From Acidobacteriota bacterium (lineage in GTDB: Bacteria; Acidobacteriota; Terriglobia; Bryobacterales; Bryobacteraceae): a DNA stretch of 41,540 bases. The notes under the pieces are model-generated. The model made no database searches. It worked only from the letters and a program-made list of their open reading frames with translations, and was not told the origin of the DNA. Each line of letters begins with the position of its first letter. Positions within the stretch are counted from its first letter, which is position 1. The stretch spans positions 1-41,540 of the forward strand of contig VFZP01000004.1 of assembly GCA_016871115.1 (NCBI GenBank), written 5' to 3'. Shown here in pieces: positions 9,786 to 24,257 of this stretch. The translations under genes were made by a program, and so were the position numbers.

Positions 9786-12700
9786 TTGGGACAGTATGAA
9801 ATAATGATGTTGCCGGTTCCTATGCAACGTCAACAGTTTCGCCGCCGTACGATTCTGCCCGCCCTCGGGTTGCTCAGCCTGCTGGGCATTGCCTGGATCC
9901 AAGCCGCCGAAAACGCTCCGGCCGCGCTTGAGCCGGCGTTTGCCAAGTCGGTAGCGCCTTTCCTCAAGAAGAACTGCCTCCAGTGCCACAACACCGAAAC
10001 CGCCGTAGCCGGCGTGCGTCTTGAGGCTCTCAACGCCTCGCTCGAGGATCGCCACCTCACCATCTGGGAGCACGTGGAGAAGAAGATCGCCGACGGGTCC
10101 ATGCCGCCCAAAGGGCTGCCTCAGCCTTCCGCCGAAGAACGTAAGGCTGTGATCGAGTGGATCACGCGCGCGCTCGAAGTAGCCCGGGCACGGCCCACGC
10201 CAAAGAACGGCATGGCGCGGCGGCTCACGATTGCGCAATACCGTAACACCCTGCGCGACCTGCTACTCCTTGACGACAACGACCTCACCGAAGCCTTGCC
10301 TCCCGACGCGGTCTCCAAAGACGGCTTCGTCAACAACAAGGAAACGTTGCAACTGAACCCTCTGTTGACTGAGGCGTATTTTGAGATCGCCGAAGAAGCC
10401 CTGAGCCGCGTGATCGTCAATCCCGACGTCAAGCCCGCGATTCAGAAATTCCGTTTGGACCTTGGCGAGGGCGTGAACCCGAACCCGATTCCCGAGAAGT
10501 TGATTCTCGGCGCCGGCAGCGAGTTGCTCGAAAACAAAGACGTGCTCATCACGCAGCCCCGGCCCGTGAAACCCTTTCCGTTTGAGCCCGTGGCGATGCG
10601 CACCAAGTTTCGCTTCATCGAAGGCTATCAGGGCAATGACACAGTACGCGGGTGGCGCGAGTACGACAGCATCTACCACGCGGTCTTCGCCGATGTGCGC
10701 GGCAGCCATGGTTACCCCAAGGGCCAAGCCTACAGCACCGCGCCCGAAGGGCTACTCCTGCGCCCCGCGATTCCGAACGACGAGATTTTCACCGCCGACG
10801 GGACCTACGGTCCCAAAGCCAACTTCAAGATTCCGGTACGCGAGTTGCCTAATCACGGCCGCTTCCGTGTAACGGTCAACGCCGCCAAATATGACGACGG
10901 CCTGCTGCTGGACGAAGACGCCGCGTCGCGCCCCGAGGGCTCGGCGGGCGCGGTCACGGCGCGCGGAACCCGAACGGGGCAGACGGTGGAGATCCCGACC
11001 GCAGGCCTTTACCAAGTGGATGTCTACAAGGGCACGCGCGGCGACACGCCGCCCTCACCGGACGCATCGCGCCTGAGCGAAGGCCTTGGCGGCGAATGGA
11101 AGTTTGAATCGCCAGACGGCCTCACCATGGAAGGCAACGCCAAGCTCACCGACGACTCTCCTTTCGGCAAGGCCATCGCCTTCAGCGGCATGGGTACTGC
11201 GGCAGTGGCGGACCGGACACCGGCAATGAATGTGGGCACCGGAGACTTCACAGTGGCCGCCTGGATCCACCCGCGCCAGCAGCGCCGCGCGGGCCTCGTC
11301 GCCGCGGGCGGTTTGAACTGGATGCACGGCTGGCTGTTGATGATCAACGATAACAAGGGCATGCTGCGGTTTGAGGCCTCCAGCGCCGACACGCAATCTG
11401 CTGGCAGCGTCCAGTCTCTGCCCGGTGTGATTCGTCATGATGTGTGGCAACACGTGGCGGCCATTGTCAAACGCGGCGGCAAGAACCAGACGGTTCTGTA
11501 CGTGAACGGCTACGCGGTGGCGAAGGGCGATATCTCCGATGCTGACCTCGACAACGCGAAAATGGCGCTGCGCATCGGCCGTGTCCCCGCCGGTCCGCAG
11601 TTCCGCGGCGACATGGATGAGGTGCGGCTGTACCGGCGCGCGCTTAGCGAAGCCGAGTTGCAGGCGCTCATTGAGCCGGGCCGCGAGTTTGCGATTCCTC
11701 CGCCTGAGAAAGCGCCAGAATTGTCGATGCGGCTCGGCGCACGCCGCTTCGCTGGCACGCTCCACCAGCCCTCGTTTCTCGCCTTGCGCTTGCCGGCCGG
11801 GCCGCTCGAAGTCAAAACCGAAAACACAGGCGTGCGCGACATTGATCGCGTGGTGTTCACGCCCCTCCGCGGCAGCGACCCCATGGAGCGCCGTTTTCTC
11901 ACGTTTGAAAAGCGTGCCCCGCGCGTGGGTGTGCATCTCGGGTTCCGGCGCGATTGCGGCAGCACACTCGCTCCCGTTGGTCCGGCGCAGCAGATGGCCT
12001 CCACCACGCCCGGGCAGTTCGTTTTTGAGGGTTCGATCCGTAACTACCCGAACCCGAATGTCGAAAAGGACAATGTGAACTACCTGGCGGGCGTGCGTGA
12101 AATCGGCGTGCGAAGCGAGTACACAGACGGCCGCGACATGCCGAGACTGGCCATTCAGTCAGTAGAATTCGAAGGCCCCTACTACGATTCCTGGCCGCCG
12201 GCTTCGCACCGCAGTATCTTTATCGACTCACCGGCCAAGGCCAACCCAGCCGTCTATGCACGCCAGATCATCCGCAACTTCGCTACGCGAGCCTTCCGCC
12301 GCCCGGTGACGGCCGCCGAAGAGGCCGCGCTGATCGGGGTGTTCAACAAGACGTACGCGGCAGGCAGGGACTTTGAACGTAGCGTAAAGGATGCGCTCCT
12401 GGTGGTACTCACCTCGCCGCAGTTCCTGTTCCTGGTGGAAAGCAGCGCTTCCCCTGCGCCGGAGCCGTTGAACGCCTATGAACTCGCCTCCAAGCTGAGC
12501 TACTTCCTGTGGAACGCGCCGCCGGACCGTACAACGCTTCGCCTTGCCGCCAACGGGACTTTGCGTGCGCGCTTGGATGCTGAGGTTGACCGCATGATAT
12601 CGAGCCCGCGCGCTTCGCAGTTCATCCGCGAGTTTGCGTCGCAGTGGCTGGCGCTAGACAAATTCCAGGTGCTGGAGCCGGACAAAAAGAGCTTCCCCCG

Positions 12701-13454
12701 CATGACGCGCGACATCCGCGCGCACCTCAAGGATGAACCGGTCGCTTTCATCGAACATCTGCTGCGGAACAATCTGCCTGTGAAGAATCTGGTGGCTTCC
12801 GACTTCATTGTGGCCAACGAAGTGGTGGCCAGCTACTACGACCTCGCCGACAAGACCGAGGATGGGTTCCGTTTTGCCGTGATCCCGCACGGGCGCCCTG
12901 AACTGGGTGGCGTGCTCACGCAGCCCGCCATCATGGCCGGCTTGAGCGACGGACGCGAGTCGAACCCCGTGAAACGGGGCAATTGGATCGCGCGCCGTAT
13001 CGTGGCCGAGCCGCCGGACGATCCGCCGCCGAACGTGCCCGCGCTGAAGGAAGCAGAAAAGGGCATGACATTACGCGAGCGCATCGAAGCGCACCGCAAT
13101 CAGTCGGCCTGCCGCCAATGTCACGCCAAGATCGATCCGTATGGCGTGGCGATGGAAGAGTTCGATGCCGGCGGCCGGCTCAAGACTCACGCGGCGGACG
13201 CGCGCGCCACGTTGCCGGACGACAAGGATGTCGCGGGCTTGGCAGACCTGCAACGCCATTTGATCGAAACCCGGATTGACCAGGTGGCCTTCAGCGTCCT
13301 CAAGCACATGCAGACCTATGCAAACGGCCGCACACTGGCATACAATGAGGTTAACTTTTTGAAGCAAGACGGCTTGAAGTTGAAGCCGGGCGGCTATCGG
13401 ATGAAGGACATGATCCGGTACGTCGTAAACAGCAAAGCGTTCTTGGAGAAGTGA
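9786..13454 (+). CDS. DUF1592-family (DUF1587/1592/1588/1595/1585) c-type-cytochrome protein with LamG-like insertion
   Basis: [17 protein letters not shown] heme site; [48 protein letters not shown]; central LamG-like [12 protein letters not shown]...[25 protein letters not shown]. Exact start uncertain (9786, 9807 or nearby). Confidence 0.88.
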
Positions 13455-13458
13455 GGAA

Positions 13459-14790
<1,332 letters not shown>

Positions 14791-16460: not shown

Positions 16461-17825
16461 GTGTCGCGGCAGCTCTTTGGAACGGATGGAATTCGCGGCG
16501 TGGCGGGCAAAGCCCCGCTAGATCCGCGCACAGTGCATGCCACGGGTGCGGCTCTGGGCGCCTGGTGCCGGTCGCATGCGCCAGCCGGGGAAACGCCCGA
16601 AGTGGTCGTCGGTATGGATACCCGTGAATCGGGATCCTGGATCGCGGAACAGGTGGCAGGCGGCTTGGCGCGGGAAGGCGTGCGGGCTCGCTTTGCTGGC
16701 GTCATCACCACGCCCGGCGTCGCCTACCTCACCAAGAATGATACGTTTGTGGCGGGCGTGATGATTTCGGCCTCGCACAATCCGTTTCAGGACAACGGCA
16801 TCAAGATCGCTGGCCACTCCGGCTACAAGCTGCCGGACAGCGAAGAACTGGAGATTGAGAAGGTCATTTTCCGGCTGCTCACCGAGGGCATCGAAGCCAC
16901 CCGGCGGGTGATGGAAGTCGAAGCACGGCTGGATGCGCGGTATCTTGAGTACCTCCTCTCCACTTTCCCCGGACGCCTCGATGGCATGAAAATCGTGCTC
17001 GATTGCGGCAACGGCGCGGCGTCGCGGTTGGGGCCGGAAGCACTCGAACGCCTGGGCGCGCATCTGGTGGTGACGAACGCCGAGCCCAATGGCCGCAACA
17101 TTAACCTCGAATGCGGCGCCACGCACGTGGACAAGCTCCGCGCACGGGTGGTGGCCGAACGGGCCGCGGCAGGCTTTGCCTTTGACGGCGATGCGGACCG
17201 CTGCATTGCGGTGTCGGCGTCCGGCGCGATCGTCGATGGCGACGCGGTGTTGCTGATGATGGCGCGCTACCTGCACGCGCGAGGGCGGCTTCATGCCAAG
17301 GACGGCTCGCCGGTGGTGGTAGCCACAGTGATGTCGAACCTCGGGTTCCAGCGCGCGCTCGAACGCGACGGGATCGGGTTGATCCGCACGGCGGTGGGCG
17401 ACAAGTATGTGCTCGAGGAAATGGTGAAGCGCGGCGCGCCGATCGGCGGCGAACAGTCCGGCCATCTCATCTTCATGGAGCAGGCCACCACGGGCGATGG
17501 ATTGTTGACCGCCCTGCGTGTGCTCGAAGTGATGCAGCAAACCGGCAAGCCGCTTGACGAGTTGACCGAGGGCTTTCACAGCTACCCGCAGAAGCTGGTG
17601 AACTTGCGCGTCAAAGAACGCCGCCCGCTGGCCGATCTCGTGGCGGTGAACGCCGCGATTGAGGCGGCCGAGCAGTCGCTGGGTTCCGATGGCCGCGTGC
17701 TGGTGCGTTTCTCTGGCACCGAGCCGCTTTTGCGCGTGATGGTGGAAGGCCCCACGAACGAATCCGTGGAGAACCACTGCGCCTTGATCGCCGGAGCCAT
17801 TCGCTCCGAACTCGGCGCGTCCTGA
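16461..17825 (+). CDS. glmM: Phosphoglucosamine mutase
   Basis: GTG start; LFGTDGIRGVAG, ISASHNPFQDNGIKI, FAFDGDADRCIAV, RFSGTEPLLRVMVEG. Confidence 0.96.
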   Translation: MSRQLFGTDGIRGVAGKAPLDPRTVHATGAALGAWCRSHAPAGETPEVVVGMDTRESGSWIAEQVAGGLAREGVRARFAGVITTPGVAYLTKNDTFVAGVMISASHNPFQDNGIKIAGHSGYKLPDSEELEIEKVIFRLLTEGIEATRRVMEVEARLDARYLEYLLSTFPGRLDGMKIVLDCGNGAASRLGPEALERLGAHLVVTNAEPNGRNINLECGATHVDKLRARVVAERAAAGFAFDGDADRCIAVSASGAIVDGDAVLLMMARYLHARGRLHAKDGSPVVVATVMSNLGFQRALERDGIGLIRTAVGDKYVLEEMVKRGAPIGGEQSGHLIFMEQATTGDGLLTALRVLEVMQQTGKPLDELTEGFHSYPQKLVNLRVKERRPLADLVAVNAAIEAAEQSLGSDGRVLVRFSGTEPLLRVMVEGPTNESVENHCALIAGAIRSELGAS

Positions 17826-19483
17826 TTGAGTGAAGCTTCGCGCACCAGGCGCTCACACCCGCGCACGGTCAGCGCCATCATCGTCAGCGTCGGGTGGTAC
17901 GAGCCCGTGGTAACAAACGGCCCGCCGCCAAACACGTACACGTTCTTGATGTCGTGCATCCGGCAGTACGGGTCCAGCGCGTTGGTCTTCGGGTCTTTGC
18001 CCATGCGGCACGTGCCCACTTCGTGAATCAGCCCGCCCGGCGTCGAGATGCTGCGGCCCACTTCGCGAATCTCTCCGCCCGCGGCCGTGAAGATTTCCTT
18101 CCTCATGTCGGTGCAGTCCTGCCAGATCGCGCGCTCGTTGTCGCTGAACGTGCAGGTGATCTTCAGCACCGGAATGCCAAAGGCATCCTTGCGCACCGGG
18201 TCAATCTCCACCTTGTTCTCAAAGCGCGGGAGCATTTCGCCGGCCGACATGTAGATGCGCGCCACCGCCGGGTAGTTCTTGCGGATCGACTCTTTCAGAT
18301 CGGCGCCGTAGCCGGGCATCACGAGCGCAAACCCCGGACTCGAAGTCTGCCCGCCGCTCATGTTCATGCAGTAGCCCCGGATGAACTTCGGGTGCTCGTC
18401 TTTGAGGTTGCGGAAATTGGGAATGAATGTGCCGCTCGACTTGCCGTCGTCGTTCCGCGGCGCATTGCCGCGTAGCGCCGGCAGAAAGCCCGTGACGCTA
18501 GCGCCGGACACCTGGTCCATCAAATAGTGCCCCAGCGTGGCACTCGAATTAACGTGGCCGTCCTTGGCGCAGTTGAGCAGAATACACGTGGACTCGAGCG
18601 TCGACGCGGCGACGATCACGAACTTGCCGCGCGCCTCGTAGTCTTGCCGTGTTTGGCGATCAATGTAAGAGACGCCGCGCGCGCGACCGTCGGCGGCCAT
18701 CGTCACGGCGCGCACCACCGAATCCGGCCGCAGCGGCATCCTCCCGGTGGCCGCGGCCACTGGGAGCGTCGACACGATCGAGTTGAACATGGCCCCGATA
18801 TCGCAGCTCTGTATGCATGCGCCGCAGAAGCGGCACGCCGGGCGGCCCTTGTGCGGGCGCGTCAGTTGCGCGAGACGCCGCTGCGTTACCGGCAGATTCA
18901 TGCGCTTGGCCGTGCGGCGGAACAGTTCCTCAGCGCAGTTGTGCGGCATGCCGGGCAGGAACTTGCCGTCAGGCAATGGCGGGAAACCCGCCATGTAGCC
19001 GCTGACGCCGATGTGTTCCTCGACGTGATCGTAAAAGGGCGCAAGGTCCGCGTAGCTGACGGGCCAGTCTTCACCGAACCCATCGCGCGAGGCCGCTTTG
19101 AAATCGAAGTCGCTCAGCCGGTGCGTCGCGCGAGACTAGTGGAGTGAGCGCCCGCCCACCATGCGCGAGCGGATCCACGTGAACGGCTTGCCGGGCTCGG
19201 TGGTGAACGGATGGTCTGGGTGCCGAGCCCACAAGAGCGGCACGCGGTCGCTGGGGCGCTCCGGGCGGCGGCGCTCAGCAGCCAGACCGCGCCCAGGCTG
19301 CTGCCACGGCCATTCGTGGCGCGCAAAGTCCCTGCCGGCCACAGGTATCGGACCAGCGTCCAGCACCAACACATCCATGCCGCGTTCGGTCAGTTCCTTC
19401 GCGGCAAAGCCGCCGCACGGGCCGGTGCCGATGATGATGGCGTCAAACTGGCGCGTGGGCGTATCGCGAGTGATCGTCAGCAT
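17826..19483 (-). pseudogene. GMC-family oxidoreductase, interrupted by an in-frame TAG and lacking its own stop before glmM
   Basis: N-part MLTITRDTPTRQFDAIIIGTGPCGGFAAKELTERGMDVLVLDAG...MVGGRSLH, then TAG at 19136-19138, then in the same frame SRATHRLSDFDFKAASRDGFGEDWPVSYADLAPFY...CGACIQSCDIGAMFNS...GTCRMGKDPKTNALDP...GSYHPTLTMMALTVRGCERLVREAS. The open frame continues antisense into glmM to 17582. Confidence 0.82.
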
Positions 19484-19494
19484 GGTGCGGCTAC

Positions 19495-20032
19495 CTACTT
19501 GGCCTCCTGATGCGCTGGATGCTGGCACGCCAGATATTGCAAAATCGGCACGATGCCTTTGTACTCAAGCTCCTTGAGCAGCCCCACGCTCGAGGTGTAT
19601 TAGCCAGAGATGGTCTGCCGCTTGATGCGCACAAAGAACTACTCGGCGGGTGTGGACGGTTTGCGCTCGGCCGCAGCCCACGCCTGCATCAACTCATGGC
19701 GCTGCGCGGTGGTGCAGGCAGGAAATGCTTTGCCGAAGCGCGCCTGCGCCGGCGTCCACCGCAGCGAGTCCCTCCGTCCACGCCGTTTTGTCACTGGCGG
19801 CGAGGTCTTCGATGAACACCGTGACGCCCGCCTCGCGCGCACCAGGAGAATGCGCGTGGGCCGGAATGATCATCTCGGCGATTTCCTCCACCAGTTTCCT
19901 TTGCGGTGCGGTGAAGAACTTCGCCGTCGCGGCCGCAGCAGCGGCCGGCGCGTGCTGATGCTCCTGCGCCTGCGCCCCCGCTACGCTGCCGCCGCCAATC
20001 ACCACCAGTTGAATTGCTTCTCTACGTTCCAT
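19495..20032 (-). pseudogene. Gluconate 2-dehydrogenase subunit 3-like protein, degraded (frameshift + TAG + TAA)
   Basis: MERREAIQLVVIGGGS...FFTAPQRKLVEEIAEMIIPAHAHSPGAREAGVTVFIEDLAA..GLAAVDA, shift near 19740-19765, then QARFGKAFPACTTAQRHELMQAWAAAERKPSTPAE-TAG(19639-19641)-FFVRIKRQTISG-TAA(19600-19602)-YTSSVGLLKELEYKG...ACQHPAHQEAK*. Confidence 0.8.
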
Positions 20033-20038
20033 TGCTGC

Positions 20039-21302
20039 TCACCATGCCTCACGGTTCGTGATCGTCACACGAAACACGGGCTTCTTGCGTTCCTCTTCGT
20101 CCATCTCGTACACTTGCCCACACCGCCCCGCGTCGTACTCGCGCCAAAACCACGCAAGCGACTCGGGCAAATCCATCGCGCCCTCCGCAATCACATGCAT
20201 GCTGGTGCCGAACCGGAAATGAAAATCATACCCGCGCAGCTTCAACGCGTTCGCCAGGGCCATGTTGCTCAACGGCCAATTGCCCGCGCGGCTCTCTCCA
20301 TCGTCGGCACCGTCTGAAAGCCACACGCGCAGATTGTTCTTCGCTTCGCGATTCACTTTGAACGGCACGATGTAGCCGCCATCGAGGTGCTCTTCCGGTT
20401 TCCACTGCAGAGCGGTGTAGCTGCCGATGTGCGACAGCACGCGGCTGAACTGCTCTTGGTGATACCACGCCACGTTAAACGCAGAGATGGCGCCAGACGA
20501 TGCGCCGGCCACGGCGCGTGAGTACGCATCGAGCCGCAGCTTGGACGTCTACTCCACGTCTGGCAGTACTTCTTCAAGCAGATACTTGCCGCAGATACTC
20601 GCCGTAGGTGCCCGACACGGTGTCGTATTGAATGCTGCGCATTTTCGTGCCGCCCTGGCCCGGTTGAATCAGCACATCCACCATCGGAGGAATCGCGCCC
20701 CGCGCCACCATGTTGTCGGTGACGATCTGCAGGCGCAGCCGCAGCAGATCCACGTTGCCCGCGATCGTCTCGCCGTCCTGCCACACCGTCAGCGGCGTGC
20801 CGTTCACCATGTCGAGGCCGGCATTGGCGTACACCCAGTAATTCGCCCGCACGCCCGGATAGATCGATGACCTGAGCCTTCTCTTCTCCGAGAGCTTCCC
20901 GCGTGCGACGCCGGGCAACGGATACGAATACGGATTGTACGCCGCCACTTCATAGCCGCCCAGCGGTTGGCCCGCGCCATCGAAGTAGTGATAAGAATGC
21001 GTCGCGCCCATGCGCAGCGTCTTCAGCAAATAAAAGTACGGCGTACCGGGAAGAGGCTTAATCGACACAGGCGGTTGCTTATCGATCGCCACCGTCGCAG
21101 GCGTTGCGCTCTCTACGGCAAACAGAAACTCCTGCCCCCACACAAGCGCTCCATCGCGGCCCTTCATCTCCGGAAGCCCGCCCGCGAAAACCTCCGCCAA
21201 CGCAGCCGTGTTGTTCGTGCGCGCCGCGTTCACGGCCTCTTGCAGCGGATGAGTTTGTGCGGCCGCCAGCACCGCAGTCCAGAGCAACGGCGCGAGGCGC
21301 AT
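20039..21302 (-). pseudogene. Enterochelin-esterase-like (Fes/IroE-type alpha/beta hydrolase) protein, degraded
   Basis: N-part frame 20574-21302 (MRLAPLLWTAVLAAAQTHPLQEAVNAAR...DTVSGTYGEYL), 13-bp tandem duplication at 20578-20603 shifts frame, then LEEVLPDVE-TAG(20549-20551)-TSKLRLDAYSRAVAGASSGAISAFNVAWYHQEQFSRV... Confidence 0.82.
20578..20603. repeat. 13-bp tandem duplication inside the esterase pseudogene
   Basis: gcagatacttgcc / gcagatactcgcc adjacent copies, 12/13 identical. Removing one copy restores GTYGEYLLEEVLPDVE. Confidence 0.8.
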
Positions 21303-23274
21303 TACTTCACTCCAAACGAAAAGACCATGCTGCCCACGATAATCGACACTTACTGTTTGTTGTCGAACATGTATGTCATGGGCGAGGTGTGCAGCGGGTC
21401 ATTGAACGGAAAGCTCCACAGCTTGCGGCCCGTCGACGCGTCGGCCGCGGCCAGCAGGCCCGCATCGTCGCCGTAGACCATCAGCCCGCCCGCCGTGGTC
21501 AGCGTGCCCGTCCACGTATCGCCCGGACCGTCCTGCGGAATATCCCACACTACCTTGCCCGTTTCAATATTGAACGCCCGCAGAAACTTCTGCGGCTGGT
21601 CGTTCGGGTCACGCCGCCCGCCGCCGCCGTAATAGTTGCGGCCCACTTCCCATTCCGGCGTCGCCTGCTTCGTATAGATCGCGCAGCGTTCAAGTGTGTT
21701 CACATAGAAAAGCCTCGTAGCGGGGTTGAACGAGGTGGAGAAAAAATTCGCCGCGCCTTCCACAGCCGGGCAAATCAGCGCGCCCTCTTTCGTCGGCACC
21801 GAATTGGGATTCATCACAGGCCGCCCTTCCGGCGCAATCTCTTTCGCCCACGTCAGCTTCTTCACCAGCGGCGTGGCCATCAGCATCTTCCCGTTCGCGC
21901 GATCGAGCACATAGAGGAACCCGTTGCGATTCGCCTGCAGCACCAGCTTGCGCGGTTGCCCGCGCCACACCGCGTCCACCAGCAACACGGGGGCAATCGC
22001 GTCCCAATTCTACTCATCGTGCGGCGTCGGCTGGAAATGCCACTTCAGTTTCCCGGTGTTCACGTCGAGCGCGATGATCGAGCATGTGTAGAGGTTGTCG
22101 CCCTTGCGATTGTCGCCGTTGAAATCGGGCCTGCGTTTTCGGTGGGCCAGATCACGGTTTTCGTTTCGGGGTCGTAGCTGCCAGTGAGCCATGTCGGCCC
22201 GCCGCCATGCTCGATGTCCGAACCGTCCCAGGTCTCTGAGCCCGGTTCACCCTTCGCGGGAATCGTCCAGAAGCGCCACAGCACTTTGCCCGTCTGCTGA
22301 TTGTAGCCCGCAAGGAACCCGCGCACGCCCTGTTCCCCGCCCGCTGTGCCGGCCACCACCACGTTCTCCACCGCCAGGAGCGACCCGGTGGCGTTGTAGT
22401 TCTGGCGATAGTCGGCCATTTCGGTGTCCCACAACATTTGCCCCGTGTGGCGATGGAGCGCGATCAGATGCGCTTGGTCCCTCTGCATGAACACCTTGTC
22501 GCCCGCGATCGAAACGCTGCGGTTGTTGCTCGGCGAACGCGCGTTGCCCACCAGGCCCGCCGTCGATGGTCGCGAGTACTCCCACAGCCGCGCGCCCGTG
22601 CCCGCATCGAGCGCAATCACGCGGTTCGTGTCGGTGACATACATCACGCCTTCATGCACCTGCGGCGTGCCCTGCAAGCGGCCCGCGTTCGGCACCCCAT
22701 ACACGCACTCCACGCCTAACCGGCTCACATTCTTCGGTGTGAGTTGCTTCAGCGCCGACTAGCGGTTGCCATCGAGGCCCCCATGCATGCTCGTCCAATC
22801 GGCTTGCGACGTCACGCGGCGATGCGTGTCACCTGGCGCTTTCCGCAGCAGTTGCAGTCTTTGATCAGCGGTGCGCAGGGCGAGATCGCGCCTAGTTTTT
22901 GAAATCGCGAGGCCCTCCATTTGCGTGCCATCGGTGAGCTTCACCTTAAGCCGCGTGGACTGAAAGCCACGGCGGCGGCGCTCGTGCTGCTGCAGCACGC
23001 GCATGTAGTCGACCAGCGCCACGCGCTCGGCTTCCGGCAACTGCTTGAAGCCAGGCATGCCCTTGGCCGCCACTCCGTCTACGATGATGGCGTTGAGTTC
23101 GGCATCGGTCTTCGCCGCCACCGCGGGCAACACAGACGGTGCATGTTCACCGCCGTTGCCGTCACTGCCATGGCAAACCATGCAATGCGATTCAAATGCC
23201 GCGCGCCCGGCCACGGAATCGGGAGCCTGCGCAAACAGACAGCCGGCGCTGAAAAGGATCAGCACAAACAACAT
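21302..23274 (-). pseudogene. PQQ-dependent dehydrogenase with N-terminal cytochrome c domain, degraded (TAG, frameshift, TAG, TAA)
   Basis: HCMVCHGSDGNGG heme site, ...HGGLDGNR-TAG(22759-22761)-SALKQLTPKNVSRL...GTPQVHEGVMYVTDTNRVIALDAGTGARLW..., frameshift near 22126-22132, [41 protein letters not shown](22010-22012)-NWDAIAPVLLVDAV..., HTSPMTYMFDNKQ-TAA(21350-21352)-VSIIVGSMVFSFGVK* (original-type stop 21302-21304). Confidence 0.85.
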
Positions 23275-23291: not shown

Positions 23292-24257
23292 TTAGCGTCC
23301 GCCGATACCGCCGCGCAGGTCACGGAAGGCCGACAGCAGCCCCGGCACCAGCGTGACGATGAACAGTGGCGGAAGAATAAACAGCACAATCGGGATCAGC
23401 ATCTTGATGCCCGCCTTGCCGATCGCCGCTTCGGCCCGTAGCCGCCGGCGCATGCGCAGTGCGTCGGCGTACACATTGAGCGCTTGCGCGAGCGAGGTGC
23501 CGAAGCGCTCGGACTGCACAATCATCGCCGCCAGCGATTTGATATCTTCAATGCCCGTCCGCCGCACCAGTTGATTGAAGGCCTTGGTTCGCTCCTGCCC
23601 TGCCTTCACCTGCATCACCACCGTGTAGAACTCCGCGGCCAGTTCCGGATAGATATGCGCCATTTCGTCGCTCACACGCATCATCGCCTGATCGAGCGAA
23701 AGCCCTGTTCCCAGCACGATGCCCAACAAGTCCACCGTGTCGGGCAGCGCTTCTTCCAGGCGGCGCTTGTAGCGGGCCGCGAGGCGATACAGAATTTGCC
23801 GCGGCAGCAGCCATCCAAGAATGAACGCCGCAGCAAGACCCGCTATGATCTTCGCAGGCTCATTGCCGCGCTGCAAATACAACATACCGCCGAGGCACAG
23901 CACCAGGAACCCTGCGTGAAAGAGGCAGTACGCCGCCACCATCTCGCGCTTGCGCACACCGGCTGCACCCAGTTCTTTTTCCGTGTCGCGCAGCCAGTCT
24001 TCCCCGCCCGGCGCCAGACTGATGAGATACATCAGCGAATTCATCACGCCGCCGCCGGCCACATAGCGGCGCTTGCCGCGCAGACCGGCCTGCTGCGCCT
24101 GTCCGCCCGCCGCAACGAGTTCCTCAAGGCGATCGTCAAGCGGCGAGCCTTCCTCGGCCGCAGCGGCAGCGCCGGCAAACAACTGGAAACCGGACCACAG
24201 CATCGCCGCCACTGTGCCGAAACAGAGCAAGAAGAAAACAATCGGGCCGAGCAACAT
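23292..24257 (-). CDS. tadC: Type II secretion system F-domain protein, TadC-like
   Basis: LPDTVDLLGIVLGTGLSLDQAMMRVSDEMAHIYPELAAEF; ERFGTSLAQALNVYADALRMRRRLRAEAAIGKAGIKMLIPIVLFILPPLFIV. Confidence 0.88.
   Translation of the reverse strand: MLLGPIVFFLLCFGTVAAMLWSGFQLFAGAAAAAEEGSPLDDRLEELVAAGGQAQQAGLRGKRRYVAGGGVMNSLMYLISLAPGGEDWLRDTEKELGAAGVRKREMVAAYCLFHAGFLVLCLGGMLYLQRGNEPAKIIAGLAAAFILGWLLPRQILYRLAARYKRRLEEALPDTVDLLGIVLGTGLSLDQAMMRVSDEMAHIYPELAAEFYTVVMQVKAGQERTKAFNQLVRRTGIEDIKSLAAMIVQSERFGTSLAQALNVYADALRMRRRLRAEAAIGKAGIKMLIPIVLFILPPLFIVTLVPGLLSAFRDLRGGIGGR

Follow-up and report, generated by a model that had tools for sequence, protein, structure and literature searches.

The analysis of a 41,540-bp stretch of DNA (hereafter the window; contig 4 of a draft genome of 6.33 Mb in 639 contigs, 91.7% complete) revealed four adjacent genes in the minus strand whose full-length homology to intact orthologues is broken by stops and frameshifts. 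We consider it probable that these pseudogenes are one case of a recent, genome-wide pseudogenisation of accessory genes, and that the lesions exist in the organism itself and are not base errors. The named relatives found for comparison were Bryobacterales/Bryobacteraceae and other Acidobacteria.

Pfam searches identified the damaged genes as a cytochrome c-PQQ beta-propeller dehydrogenase (21302..23274, heme motif CMVCH retained), an esterase-like gene (PF00756; 20039..21302), a gluconate 2-dehydrogenase subunit-3-like gene (PF13618; 19495..20032) and a GMC oxidoreductase (PF05199; 17834..19483). Relatives carry stop-free frames orthologous to the first and intact orthologues of the esterase and GMC genes. 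Both flanking genes, also assigned by Pfam, are intact, as the sequence-only reading had stated: glmM (16461..17825, plus strand) is convergent, and tadC (23292..24257, minus strand) is co-directional and ends 17 bp before the pseudo-operon. The tadB and cpaF genes in the window are intact too. Elsewhere in the window (9786-14790, plus strand) an intact gene for a DUF1592/DUF1588 cytochrome protein with a laminin-G-like insert is followed by an intact DUF1552 gene.

Stops were located by three-frame translation of the minus strand followed by frameshift-aware alignment to intact orthologues. All seven stops reported earlier were found at their positions, each on a conserved residue (Tyr three times, Trp twice, Lys and Arg once each). 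In the PQQ gene these are 22759 TAG (Tyr in orthologues), 22010 TAG (Trp) and 21350 TAA (Tyr); at the last site the orthologue codons are mostly TAC/TAT, with some CAC/CAT and others. The esterase has 20549 TAG (Lys), the subunit-3 gene 19639 TAG (Arg) and 19600 TAA (Tyr), and the GMC gene 19136 TAG (Trp). The three frameshifts proved equally real on alignment: a 1-nt deletion at ~22130 in the PQQ gene, a net gain of 13 nt at ~20581-20606 in the esterase, and a shift near 19735 in the subunit-3 gene. The gain in the esterase looks like a diverged tandem duplication (AGATACTTGCCGC/AGATACTCGCCGT), the two copies of which already differ at two bases. Since orthologues of the GMC protein terminate at ...RLVREA and the window frame runs on as REASLNQ... 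to 17582, antisense over glmM, its natural stop codon has probably been lost, a further point lesion beyond the seven stops and three frameshifts. The density at the locus is 11 lesions in ~5.3 kb, or ~2/kb.

The spacing of the four genes is operon-like. The PQQ gene lies 17 bp from tadC, its stop overlaps the start of the esterase (TAATG), 6 bp separate the esterase from subunit 3 and 11 bp subunit 3 from GMC, and the GMC end abuts convergent glmM. This spacing supports a single transcription unit, whereas conservation in relatives gives no such support: nowhere among the relatives was the four-gene linkage found. The best orthologues are 77-82% identical for PQQ (C-terminal part), up to 80% for the esterase and 77-78% for GMC. 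In two relatives (G246 and G242) they occupy different contigs, and in a third (G136) a single contig carries the PQQ and esterase orthologues at a distance of ~223 kb. General linkage was seen for the subunit 3-GMC pair alone; in Bryobacterales it has the same order as in the window, but the copies there are intact and have no adjacent PQQ gene. A trace of the esterase was seen beside such a pair only in G107, where a 39-residue tail with its own stop (ending ...ERKKPVFRVTITNRDAW-stop; G107:C78:7001-23109, 11631-11747, minus strand) lies directly upstream of the intact pair. This remnant indicates at least one further case of linkage of esterase, subunit 3 and GMC, with an independent loss of the esterase in G107. 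In G136 and G137 the esterase adjoins a PQQ paralogue. The view of the four genes as one functional unit is therefore supported in part, by the spacing and the conserved subunit-3/GMC pair, and not by the PQQ and esterase genes, whose orthologues are unlinked. In another relative (G037, contig C58, 2598-6590) a GMC homologue is split, with ~2.8 kb between its N- and C-terminal parts, which may reflect an insertion, a rearrangement or misassembly.

Changes at otherwise invariant sites were most numerous in the window copy of all four genes (gene by gene, 19 against at most 12 in the other copies, 10 against at most 4, 33 against at most 15 and 15 against at most 7). They include Trp to Cys, Cys to Ser and Gly to Cys, although the lineage may merely be a longer branch. 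In branch models the GMC gene had an omega of 0.080 compared with 0.039 on other branches (2dlnL 9.4), and no other tested branch stood out. For PQQ, the esterase and subunit 3, dS was saturated in the codon models and omega was uninformative, so the proposed dN/dS check was of use for GMC and not for the other three. The missense excess, with the same reservation about branch length, and the raised GMC omega agree with the relaxed selection claimed earlier. From the seven stops, neutral divergence since loss was estimated at ~4% (1.6-8.5% under uniform or transition-biased spectra). The loss is therefore recent, as had been proposed.

None of the seven stops is TGA, and only 3 of 24 internal stops are TGA in the outer-membrane beta-barrel genes described below. 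This observation could be explained by read-through or reassignment of TAA and TAG, with the genes remaining functional. We regard such recoding as extremely improbable: the seven sites match four different residues, frameshifts are present alongside the stops, and TAG (424) and TAA (204) end most other genes, against 452 for TGA. No suppressor tRNA was found in the ~15% of the genome scanned. With a probability of 0.15-0.25 that seven stops include no TGA, the TGA share is in line with mutational opportunity, and the types of stop codon can be explained without recoding; on this ground and on stop usage it was rejected.

The damage extends well beyond the window. Across the genome, approximately one fifth of copies are broken in two large accessory gene families. 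Among genes for the outer-membrane beta-barrel PF25183, counted over the whole genome, 14 of 65 carry in-frame stops, 24 in total, while none of 65 does so in the relative G004 (Fisher p 6e-5). Internal stops backed by at least three homologues numbered 36 in 66,407 codons here and 6 in 104,451 codons of relatives (odds ratio 9.4, p 5e-10), in a homology set weighted to multi-copy families. Homology-based frameshifts numbered 13 in 499 kb here and 2 in 824 kb in relatives. Both kinds of lesion are thus ~tenfold above relatives. A scan based on coding potential gave 9.3 internal-stop candidates per 100 kb in ~0.96 Mb of this genome, compared with 20 in ~895 kb from six relatives. Genuine gene junctions are among such candidates, and the figures were used for screening rather than counting. 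In ~30 of 40 scanned genes Pfam domains cross the stop. The families concerned are mostly accessory: outer-membrane beta-barrel, PQQ, glycogen debranching, peptidase S9 and sulfatase, then MFS, MacB, chemotaxis, SNF2, DinB and others.

Other broken copies include a GMC gene on contig C43 and PQQ genes on C38, C85 and C5. On C43 (105-4506) TAA/TAG stops interrupt two neighbours, an outer-membrane beta-barrel gene and a GMC gene; the subunit-3 gene that comes next is intact. A glycogen debranching enzyme on C189 (7656-9593) has two in-frame TAGs, and a methyl-accepting chemotaxis protein on C25 (10204-11724) has a TAG inside its signalling domain (GKGFAVVAN-stop-VKELAKE); both are otherwise well conserved.

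In contrast to this accessory excess, queries with E. coli core proteins detected no internal stop or frameshift in ~33 core genes (10,337 codons). The accessory rate predicts 4-6 stops in this sample, and zero has a probability of ~0.004-0.013. Two apparent core-gene stops were rejected as lying in antisense ORFs of tuf and rplB, and others as the natural ends of argG and mscL. An excess of broken accessory genes over relatives and a spared core are both what early erosion should show, the latter with the modest power of ~33 genes.

These data bear on whether the operon was lost for its own sake, its oxidation function having become useless in an otherwise normal genome. The operon-like spacing, the damage to all four genes and the intact neighbours are in keeping with such selective loss. 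It nevertheless seems very unlikely, because the genome contains many other broken accessory genes of unrelated kinds and still has intact GMC/subunit-3 pairs and PQQ paralogues elsewhere, and because the four genes form no conserved unit in relatives. The coordinated loss of a single function suggested by the sequence-only reading is not supported, given the approximately one fifth of other accessory family copies that are broken and the GMC, subunit-3 and PQQ paralogues that remain intact.

A more serious alternative, still an unlikely one, is that the contigs have a high rate of assembly or base-calling errors and that living cells carry undamaged genes. The genome is a draft of 639 contigs and the lesions are spread over many of them. 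Such drafts may hold errors: a thrS-like match in the relative G246 (C1, ~9180, plus strand) also has an internal stop, possibly a base error or a paralogue. In bacterial pseudogenes frameshifts are expected to be at least as common as stops; here stops exceed frameshifts ~2.5 to 1, which leaves some room for substitution-type errors. However, random base errors should strike all genes alike, and the stops are clustered. In PF25183 they are concentrated by gene (variance/mean 1.74, p 2e-4), and the chance of 24 stops touching no more than 14 genes is 3e-4. The seven stops in the window all fall within 5.2 of ~38 kb of coding sequence, which has a probability of ~1e-6 if stops were even over it. 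The ~33 core genes are clean, and a 13-bp duplication with copies two bases apart would be an unusual read error. Clustered stops and a clean core thus favour real pseudogenisation.

If the lesions are real, a compact four-gene operon would have worked until recently and then become a set of pseudogenes. Selection on it would have ceased, and point mutations, two short indels and a short duplication would have built up unremoved. The same fate would have befallen many accessory genes (outer-membrane beta-barrel, PQQ, GMC, glycogen debranching, sulfatase, transporters and others) while the core stayed clean, presumably because selection weakened or effective population size fell. The breadth over unrelated families points to a genome-wide fall in the efficacy of selection or to a change of lifestyle. 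Loss of the operon need not abolish its chemistry, because other GMC/subunit-3 pairs and PQQ paralogues remain. The chances seem even that this Bryobacterales lineage, whose genome is still large at 6.3 Mb, is at an early stage of erosion in which hundreds of accessory genes are pseudogenes and the core is intact; this would imply that it recently became host-associated or came to live as a small isolated population.

The kind of process is already known. Lesion densities in the Sodalis-allied endosymbionts SOPE and S. glossinidius have been estimated at 2/kb and 4.39/kb (PMC3499248); that of our locus, ~2/kb, is close to the former and below the latter. As in those genomes, many recognisable genes are inactivated by small lesions that are overdispersed between genes, and dN/dS is too weak to detect recent loss (PMC3499248). 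Unlike the genome analyzed here, SOPE and S. glossinidius have a known host switch and a close intact relative (PMC3499248). A further difference from the Sodalis allies is that no insertion-sequence expansion was seen in the 0.96-Mb sample, which held one repeat pair of at least 300 bp, although drafts tend to drop repeats. Insertion sequences multiply in many, though not all, genomes at this stage of erosion. A milder parallel outside hosts is subseafloor Thalassospira, in which pseudogene numbers are raised and the authors link this to small clonal populations (PMC8406185); ~48 pseudogenes per genome were found there, compared with at least about 200 here, as extrapolated from the Pfam-scanned genes with stops. 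A search of the open literature found no report of such decay in Bryobacterales and no paper joining Bryobacterales and pseudogenes.

If the lesions are real, annotation by domains would credit this genome with more oxidative and nutrient-uptake capacity than it has. They would also show gene loss at an early stage in a phylum in which the genomes studied here are large and rich in paralogues, and would allow one to test which families, such as outer-membrane receptors or PQQ and GMC oxidation, lose selection first.
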